Made by a program: the position numbers and the translations under genes | Shown: positions 12,300 to 15,480 of the stretch, in pieces | How the letters are laid out: each line of letters begins with the position of its first letter | Position numbering within the stretch: position 1 is the stretch's first letter | The notes under the pieces: generated by a model | Database searches by the model: none | What the model was told of the DNA's origin: nothing | The model's input: the letters and a program-made list of their open reading frames with translations, nothing else | Source: Deltaproteobacteria bacterium | Lineage (GTDB): Bacteria; Desulfobacterota; Dissulfuribacteria; Dissulfuribacterales; DYLC01 | DNA: 64,000 nucleotides | Reading direction: 5' to 3' | Assembly: GCA_028695735.1 (NCBI GenBank) | Contig: JAQVIJ010000005.1 | Location: 1 to 64,000 of the forward strand

Positions 12300-13043
12300 A
12301 TGAATGAGCCTGCCAATACTCACCACAATGAACCTGCGAACGGGCTGCGTGCCCTGATTCCGCCGGAATATACCGCTGTATATGAAAGATTGTCTTCCAA
12401 ATACGTGCTGGGTCTTGAGGATGTGACCATTCGCGAAAGACGTTTCCGTTTTGTCTGTGTTCAGGACCTGGAGCCGCTTCTGGCCGGCAAGGACCTGTTT
12501 GCATCTGTTTCCGACTTTCCATTCTGGGTCAAGATATGGGACGCCTCTGTTGCATTGGCCGATATGGTGGCCAGATTGCCGTTAAAGCCTGGCGTTCGTG
12601 TCCTGGAGGTTGGAGCCGGTCTGGGTATAACAGGCGTGGTGGCGGCCGCTTTCGGCTGTAATGTCACCATTACGGATATTGAAGAGGATATCCTGGATTT
12701 TTCCAGGCTTTCAGCCGTAATAAACGGCTGCACAACGGTCTCTCATGCAAGACTGGATTGGCTGTCACCCTCCGCCGGCCTGAATAAATTTGATATGATC
12801 CTGGGTTCGGAAGTGCTGTTCAACGAGCGGTTTTTCCTGCCGCTTTTAAATGTATTCAATCAGCTTTTGGCACCTGGTGGAGTGATATATCTTGCGCATT
12901 CAGCGGACAGGAAAAGCCTTGCCCGGTTTCTGCCCCTTTGCGCCAAGGATTATGATATCGCATTGCAGAAGAAGACCTTGAAGGCAGGGGAGGAGCAGTC
13001 GAAAATCGTTCTCACCCGTTTGAAGTATAGAGGGGACCTCTAA
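12300..13043 (+). CDS. Class I SAM-dependent methyltransferase (lysine-methyltransferase-like)
   Basis: A 247-residue protein that begins MNEPANTHHNEPANG four bases after the rpoC stop, in the place where rpsL often stands. Motif I, LEVGAGLGITGVVAA (about 101-115), binds S-adenosylmethionine. It is followed by the acidic motif TDIEEDIL and by DMILGSEVLF, the motif layout of the Methyltransf_16/METTL21-type group that methylates proteins. The substrate is unknown; proximity to rpoC suggests a translation or transcription target only weakly. The frame is open upstream into rpoC, but ATG 12300 gives the family-like start. Confidence 0.75.
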   Translation: MNEPANTHHNEPANGLRALIPPEYTAVYERLSSKYVLGLEDVTIRERRFRFVCVQDLEPLLAGKDLFASVSDFPFWVKIWDASVALADMVARLPLKPGVRVLEVGAGLGITGVVAAAFGCNVTITDIEEDILDFSRLSAVINGCTTVSHARLDWLSPSAGLNKFDMILGSEVLFNERFFLPLLNVFNQLLAPGGVIYLAHSADRKSLARFLPLCAKDYDIALQKKTLKAGEEQSKIVLTRLKYRGDL

Positions 13044-13107
13044 AAATTGCCTTTTCGCCTTTGAGCAACGCAGTTATGCCAACAAAATAAAGATAAGGGG
13101 AAGAGAA

Positions 13108-13377
13108 ATGCTTAAATCTATTCTAACAGGTTATATCGAAAGTGCTTTATCTTATGCAGAATATGACAAACTTGAGGATGGCACTTTTTCCGGTCGCATT
13201 CCTTTATGTAAAGGGGTCATTGCTTTCGGGAAAACGCTACGCGAATGTGAGGCTGAATTACAATCTACCTTAGAGGATTGGATTCTGGTCGGTTTGAAGT
13301 TGGGGCATCAACTTCCGGTTATCGAGGAGTATGATATGAATCGGGAACCTACTTATGAGTCAATGGCAACCATGTAA
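13108..13377 (+). CDS. hicB: HicB-family antitoxin
   Basis: An 89-residue protein with the partial RNase-H-like HicB fold. Family-typical stretches are FSGRIPLCKGVIAFGKTL and ECEAELQSTLEDWILVGL. In type II HicAB modules HicB binds and blocks the HicA RNase and represses the operon. A Shine-Dalgarno AAGGGGAAG lies before ATG 13108. The order is antitoxin then toxin, with a 23-base overlap, and the pair is contained in an integron-type cassette, a common home for toxin-antitoxin modules. Confidence 0.88.
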   Translation: MLKSILTGYIESALSYAEYDKLEDGTFSGRIPLCKGVIAFGKTLRECEAELQSTLEDWILVGLKLGHQLPVIEEYDMNREPTYESMATM

Positions 13378-13588
13378 ACGTAGAGTTTTTATAAAGCGAC
13401 TACGACAACTCGGTTTTGAAGGGCCTTATTCAGGAACACGTCATCAGTTTATGGTTTATAAGAATCACCGTTTAAGTATCCCCTCAGACGTGGAGTATTC
13501 TATTCCTCAATTGCGTATGATGATCAATGAAGTAAACTCAATAATAAAGAGAGATATCCAAGCTGACGAATGGAATAATCTGGCATAA
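13355..13588 (+). CDS. hicA: HicA-family mRNA-degrading toxin
   Basis: A 77-residue HicA-like protein of double-stranded RNA-binding fold. It contains IKRLRQLGFEGPYSGTRHQF, where the conserved G-T-R-H-Q-F segment carries the catalytic histidine, and LSIPSDVEYSIPQLRMM. HicA cleaves mRNA when HicB is lost. The start ATG 13355 lies inside hicB, so the two are translationally coupled. The TAA stop (13586-13588) is inside the R'' arm of the attC-like site, typical of compact cassettes. Confidence 0.88.
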   Translation: MSQWQPCKRRVFIKRLRQLGFEGPYSGTRHQFMVYKNHRLSIPSDVEYSIPQLRMMINEVNSIIKRDIQADEWNNLA

Positions 13589-13655
13589 CAAAGCGCTCCA
13601 CCTGACCGCTATTCCGCTGCGCTCCATAGCGGCAGGTGAGCTTGGTCGTTATCGG
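13582..13655 (+). other. attC: attC-like integron recombination site
   Basis: About 74 bases. R'' is GGCATAAC and R' is GTTATCGG. The central stem pairs CACCTG-A-CCGCTAT with ATAGCGG-CAGGTG, leaving an extrahelical A, and is closed by a loop of 13 bases. GCT/AGC pairs extend the stem past a bulged C. Extrahelical bases and an imperfect stem between R boxes are the features integron integrase reads in folded bottom-strand attC. The 3' part AGCTTGGTCGTTA resembles many environmental attC ends. Confidence 0.72.
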
Positions 13656-13689
13656 GCGAAAATTCTATTTTTTCGAGGTTCCCTTCCGC

Positions 13690-13863
13690 TCAAACCGTTT
13701 CTTGCCCGGCTGGTTCACCGGCGGCATCCTGAATGTCGCCTGCCTGTCCCTCAGATTCGGACGGTTTGTTCCTGTTCAGTCTCTGTTGCCGTTTTTCGTC
13801 CATTTTTTTCTTTTTTTCCAGTTCTTTTTTGCGTTTTTCAAATTGATAGGCGTTTCTGGCCAT
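13690..13863 (-). CDS. Small basic conserved-type protein downstream of gltX
   Basis: A 57-residue protein read leftwards from ATG 13863: MARNAYQFEKRKKELEKKKK, then a basic helix to about residue 34 and an acidic Gly/Ala/Glu tail. A strong AAAGGAGG lies between the gltX stop and this ATG, 11 bases apart, so the two genes form an operon. Small proteins that begin R-N-A-Y-x-F-x-K-R-x-K-E are familiar from Geobacter-type genomes but have no known role. The overlapping 80-residue frame on the other strand is rejected. Confidence 0.75.
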   Translation of the reverse strand: MARNAYQFEKRKKELEKKKKMDEKRQQRLNRNKPSESEGQAGDIQDAAGEPAGQETV

Positions 13864-13874
13864 TGGAGCCTCCT

Positions 13875-15350
13875 TTAAAATAGTGTTGGCGTGTTTTTGA
13901 GTCGGGCTGTCGTTCTGTCTTTACCTATGATTACGAGGCATTCGAACAGGCCTGGTCCTACTGATTGACCTGTCACAACTGTTCTGATGGCATTGATCAG
14001 GGTGCCTGATGCGATATTCCGCTCTGCGATAAAGTCTCTGACGGCCTTTTCAGTGGTTTCGAGCGTCCATGAATCGAGTCTTTCCATGCGTTCGGCCAGT
14101 TGAGGCAGCCATTCGGTCAGCTGCGGGTGTTTAAGGACATTCTTTTGTAATGCCTTTGAATCCATGGGAAAGTTGTCGGAGAAATAGGCGGCACCCAGTG
14201 TGGCGAAGTCATTGAGGGTATGAAAGCGTTGGCGGATAAGATCGATGGTCGAATAATACCAGGCCTTTTGCGTGGTCAGGAATGTCTCATCGAAGATATC
14301 AGCGGCTTTCAGCACGGCATTGACCCATGGCTCCAGCTCATTCAACGGCATGGTTTTGATATAGTGGGCGTTTATGGAAATGGCCTTGGGGTCAGTGAAG
14401 AATTTTGCATCGCCCGGCGTGTAGTTGAAGATGGAATTGGACCTGCTGACCCCTTCCAGAGAGAAGGCGTCTATCAGTTCTTGTTTGGAAAATATCTCCC
14501 TGTCATCGGAGGTATGCCACCCAAGTAAGGCGAGAAAGTTTACCAATGCCCACGGCAGGAAGCCCTTTTCCCTGTAAAATTGGACAGATACCACCTCACC
14601 ATGAGTGCGTTTGGATATCTTGCGCTTCTGCAGGTCCAGTGTGAGAGGCATGTGGGCGAACTGCGGTAATTTGGCGCCAAGGGCCTTATAGATGAGTATC
14701 TGCCTGGGTGTGTTGGCAAGGCCGTCCTGCCCGCGAATCACATGGGTGATGCGGTCGTTGATGTCATCCACCGCATTGGAGAGCAGATAAAGGGGGCTGC
14801 CGTCCGAGCGCAGGATCACGAAGTCTTCTATGTCTTCATATTTTCTTTCAATGGGGCCGTAAACGAGATCGTTGAAGATCAGGGATTCCTGCATGTCAGG
14901 GATTTTGAAGCGCACCACATAGGGAATGCCTGCCTGTTCCTTGCGGGCGATCTCCTCAGGGGAGAGATTGCGGCACGTCCTGTCATATTTGTATGCCTGT
15001 TTCGATGCTATGGCCGCCTCTTTTTTGGCCTCCAATTCCTCTTTTGTGCAGAAACACTTATAGGCATGTCCTGATTCCAGCAGGAGCTGGGCGGCCTGTC
15101 TGTGCGCATTCAGATTGGCGCTCTGAAAATACGGTCCCTCATCCCATTCCATGCCGAGCCACTTGAGGCCGTCCAGAATGCCCTGAATAGAGTCCTGTGT
15201 GGATCGTTCCGCGTCCGTATCCTCGATGCGAAGTATGAATGTTCCATTGTGTTTTTTGGCGAAGAGCCAGTTGTAGATGGCGGTTCTTGCACCGCCTATA
15301 TGCAGATAGCCCGTGGGGCTGGGGGCAAAGCGCACACGCACCTGTTCCAT
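13875..15350 (-). CDS. gltX: Glutamyl-tRNA synthetase
   Basis: A class I aminoacyl-tRNA synthetase of 491 residues that charges tRNA-Glu in the cytoplasm. The HIGH signature appears as [15 protein letters not shown] near the N-terminus, and the KMSKS signature as [10 protein letters not shown]. Start ATG 15350 is preferred over ATG 15365 because the AAAGGA Shine-Dalgarno lies between them, six bases before 15350. The C-terminal anticodon-binding domain is complete. Whether it also charges tRNA-Gln cannot be read from sequence alone. Confidence 0.97.
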
Positions 15351-15480
15351 GACGAATCCTTTCATTTTAATTGGAATATATCCCTTGATTCATGCAGTCC
15401 GGCTGCATTTTTGTAAAAAAAGCATTATAATTCAAAAATTGATTTTATCCATAGTTAACGGTATTCAACCACATAATTTT

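Follow-up and report, generated by a model that had tools for sequence, protein, structure and literature searches.

Papers that cite Loot et al. 2024 (doi 10.1038/s41564-023-01548-y) describe integron cassettes inserted at attG sites outside integrons. Off-target insertion by an IntI located elsewhere is listed in a review as one of the origins of isolated attC sites (PMC8618304). IntegronFinder version 2 calls a CALIN from two attC sites and leaves a single attC to the user (PMC9024848). Pairs of hicAB genes have been found as cassettes in Treponema denticola and in an oral metagenome (PMC4909258).

The locus described here lies in a stretch of 64,000 nucleotides (the window) and shares features with each of these systems. 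As in the attG insertions attributed to Loot et al., the cassette sits outside an integron, its crossover is G|TT and its target is neither an attC nor an intI-adjacent attI. Unlike in those insertions, so far as the citing papers describe them, the cassette has entered a palindromic repeat with many copies, so that the empty form of the target occurs many times in the genome. Like CALINs and single attC sites (IntegronFinder, PMC9024848), the locus has an attC without a neighbouring integrase; unlike CALINs, which by the IntegronFinder 2 default comprise at least two clustered attC sites, the window contains one only. The cargo is a hicAB pair, as in the cassettes of PMC4909258, but here the cassette is alone and the genome has no detected integrase.

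A sequence-only reading had proposed that a lone hicBA integron cassette lies at this place, and we can confirm that this observation is real. The entire cassette occupies positions 13074–13648 (575 bp, forward strand) and is bounded by crossover points at G13073|T13074 and G13648|T13649, which places the earlier coordinates correctly within a few bases. Its left core site GTTATGCC (13073–13080, forward strand) is complementary without mismatch to the R'' box GGCATAAC (13582–13589), as had been claimed, and is the sole such 7-mer match in the 1.8 kb scanned upstream. A left core complementary to R'' and G|TT at both ends are marks of an integron gene cassette.

The attC site (13583–13654, forward strand) was the single match of a covariance model (R1) across the 64-kb window, with a score of 81 bits (E = 6.2e-22). 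This strong match agrees with the attC proposed earlier. The training set of the model consisted of 15 attC sites, collected within the same order from intI-adjacent arrays, and excluded the site of the window. One of the 15 sites, an array attC from the intI-bearing genome G016, is 97% identical to the window attC over 65 bp, so the score of 81 bits is partly inflated by this close relative. Given the folding of the site and the left core, the conclusion that this is an attC is independent of the G016 site. Folding of the bottom strand gives the hairpin expected of an attC, in which R''/R' and L''/L' are paired, and the outer boxes pair fully once the cassette's own TTATGCC is put back. On the top strand C13598 and A13605 are unpaired and correspond to the extrahelical G and T of a bottom-strand attC; an imperfect stem with an extrahelical A had been noticed before.

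The cassette carries two overlapping reading frames. The first (13108–13377, forward strand, 89 aa) is clearly a hicB antitoxin gene by its match to Pfam UPF0150 (PF21748, 96 bits, E = 1.3e-27). The second (13355–13588, forward strand) encodes a 77-aa protein that we read as a divergent HicA and candidate toxin. Its score against the Pfam HicA_toxin family is 15 bits (E = 0.024), below the cut-off of 27, and a search of NCBIfam with this protein returned no match. His30 is invariant across a 34-member alignment of the window protein and 33 homologues. The structure model is confident (mean pLDDT 93), and its best structure matches include, weakly and with E above 0.1, the HicA chains 6g26 and 6hpb; HicA proteins from Burkholderia pseudomallei and E. 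coli are among these weakly matching nearest structures.

The stop codon of hicA lies in R'', as the sequence-only reading had stated. Since GGCATAAC is partly the conserved coding end of hicA and is present also at the relatives' loci L016 and L018, R'' alone is weak evidence for a cassette. The case is carried by the left core, the attC and the target instead. Most relatives have no attC, and only one link between hicBA and an attC is convincing (L026, 40 bits). The candidate link at L016 scored 25 bits and has no GTT at the R' position, and a cassette is not claimed there. At L026 (2495–2832) the HicA relative is 68% identical and the attC-like site begins 42 bp past its end; it lies on a contig of 3.2 kb that was assigned to a Methanosarcinaceae archaeon and may be misbinned.

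The target can be read from the sequences that flank the cassette, which are the two halves of one palindromic repeat. The left half (13032–13073) ends in CAACGCAG and the right half (13648–13686) runs from GTTATCGGGCGAAAATTC to GAGGTTCCC, with the crossover at G13648|T13649. Excision of the cassette between its G|TT ends leaves an unbroken repeat: the junction CAACGCAG|TTATCGGGCGAAAA agrees with the repeat core at every position, and the joined flanks match CAACGCAGTTATCGGGCGAAAA with 0 mismatches. When excisions of 200–2500 bp were scanned over the whole 64-kb window, removal of the cassette was the only one that yielded the repeat core. When folded, the joined site forms a long hairpin whose stability exceeds that of 500 of 500 mononucleotide shuffles, which preserve base content alone.

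According to genome-wide searches, from which all copy counts given here derive, the repeat core is present in 24–25 copies with up to 3 mismatches versus 0 for the reversed pattern, and 22 of 25 copies have GTT at the crossover. With 25 genomic copies of the core, the empty site is itself multicopy. The repeat copies in the genome are without a match to the attC model, and the target is not an attC. It lies outside integrons and offers GTT at the crossover in the context CAACGCAG|TTATCGG. Five other genomes of the order also contain the repeat, in few copies and mostly as GTCATC or other variants. The repeat family (L150–L173) is variable at its centre, where a second nested palindrome CCTGTCTGCGTGCAACGCACAGGCAGG is frequent.

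We conclude, with a probability of a little under nine in ten, that a hicBA-attC cassette was inserted by an integron integrase from elsewhere at a repeat target that is not part of an integron. This type of event, off-target cassette insertion, is already known; the target is unusually well defined. In the proposed course of events the target would be the G|TT of GTTATCGG within one copy of the dispersed palindromic repeat. The single-stranded bottom strand of attC would have been recombined into this repeat by IntI in an attG or secondary-site reaction, with the integrase carried on a transient element or lost since.

The sequence-only reading had offered two origins for the cassette, insertion at a secondary site or the last remnant of an array. 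The first is favoured because excision regenerates the dispersed palindromic repeat exactly; the second found no support at the locus. As a former on-site array, the locus would have lost its integrase and all remaining cassettes. Such a loss would agree with a genome that is without IntI over the cut-off and whose other attC loci are short, and integrase-less arrays have been proposed as degraded integrons (PMC9024848). However, the flanks are halves of a single repeat copy and join without a missing base; different sequence would be expected there if an array with its integrase and attI had once occupied the site. Exact restoration of the repeat speaks strongly against this origin, which we consider very improbable.

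The multiplicity of the repeat also bears on the integrity of the assembly. Repeats can cause misassembly, and the cassette and the repeat halves could in principle have been misjoined from separate places. A search of the genome with the region recovered additional copies of the right flank only; there are nine other partial copies of this half with 84–87% identity, so that the right half is distinct from them. In addition, each junction coincides to the base with the integron crossover G|TT, a position that a misjoin would not produce, and the assembly consists of only 9 contigs. An artefact of this kind is hardly credible.

The palindromic and dispersed nature of the repeat, with its halves bracketing the cassette, raises the question whether it represents the inverted-repeat end of a MITE-like small transposon. 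The cassette would then be a passenger that had been inserted elsewhere before the unit moved here. No second copy of the repeat with the cassette is present in the genome, and a target duplication was not recognised. Furthermore, such a transposition would leave the first step, entry of the cassette into a repeat, unchanged. We judge this scenario, too, to be very improbable, and return to insertion by an integrase from elsewhere.

Consistent with the earlier description of a cassette without integrase, a search of its own genome (97% complete in 9 contigs, so that about 3% may be missing) gave no IntI over the cut-off, and thus no complete integron with intI adjoining attI. The best IntI score was 75 bits versus a cut-off of 265; ordinary tyrosine recombinases in 14 of 14 control genomes score similarly to these 75 bits. 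The genome has two tyrosine recombinase genes, which are Xer-like in appearance. IntI over the cut-off is likewise absent from the only other genome of the same family, and is present in 24 of the 46 genomes of the order. Sites of the attC type occur in 37 of these 46 genomes, hence cassettes are in circulation within the order. At lone attC loci elsewhere in the order, the inspection covered left cores. The HicA family is sparse in the phylum (28 of 395 genomes), with its nearest relatives in Desulfobacterales; of the present order, the phylum-wide search listed 16 further genomes, none with a match. This distribution fits horizontal arrival.

The insertion point lies between two convergent genes. 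Upstream is a methyltransferase gene (Methyltransf_16, 12300–13043, forward strand; Pfam PF10294, 61.6 bits), and the cassette begins 30 bp past its stop codon. Downstream follow a 57-aa small reading frame (13690–13863, reverse strand) without an assigned family, and gltX for glutamyl-tRNA synthetase (13875–15365, reverse strand), named from sequence and 60–75% identical to the homologues of relatives. The neighbourhood is not conserved at 29 gltX loci of relatives, among which no orthologous empty junction was found. An Rfam scan of the window returned nothing but a tRNA at the window start. The cassette is co-directional with the rpoC and methyltransferase genes. The 34 bp that precede hicB revealed no promoter above chance, so that read-through from the rpoC–methyltransferase side is the likely source of cassette expression. 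Retention of the cassette may be aided by its toxin-antitoxin pair, as the sequence-only reading had proposed.

This locus represents an off-target cassette insertion that occurred in nature. Its target can be identified with confidence, because the same genome has many uninterrupted copies of the repeat. We know of no report of a multicopy palindromic repeat as such a target. If repeats were favoured as targets, cassettes could spread in integron-free genomes, with multicopy repeats accounting for their landing sites.

The attC model found three further attC sites in this genome, all in short loci (L147, L148 and L149): a DUF488 gene with a HicB-like fragment on contig C7, a DUF4136 gene with a HicAB pair on C2, and BrnT with a probable BrnA on C8. 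Each of the four attC loci of the genome thus has toxin-antitoxin genes or part of such a gene. All three further loci start at the same 85-bp module, with matching left cores. This module contains TTGACA, a spacer of 15–17 bases and GATAAT or TAATTT, and then ends in GATAATAAATAATG|TT, features that suggest a putative promoter plus attI-like element. Eight copies are present in this genome (L174–L181; G000:C7:3792, C2:2134(-), C8:29743, C2:51774, C8:189015, C8:178595, C7:4640(-) and C7:7763(-)); the other 45 genomes of the order lack the module. The copies are homologous up to G|TT and diverge beyond; those at C7:4640 and C7:7763 have a common downstream sequence, and the other six precede different genes. 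Three of the eight copies carry attC cassettes, the remaining copies have no attC match, and the genes that follow the modules include a likely restriction-modification pair. The attI-like module was absent beside intI at the loci of relatives that were examined, and absent from the rest of the order. Modules that combine a promoter with an attI-like site would provide another means of expression where an integron platform is missing. One might go further and regard the dispersed repeats, hairpin repeat and 85-bp modules alike, as landing pads for cassettes delivered by an outside integrase, which together would amount to an integron spread over a chromosome without integrase, a doubtful proposition at present. 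The short arrays are also flanked or interrupted by repeats with the ends AAAAGGACAGTCACATT and AATGTGTCTGTCCTTTT (at about 470–1020 and 1798–2717 of L147, and also in L148 and L149), which look like small non-autonomous elements.
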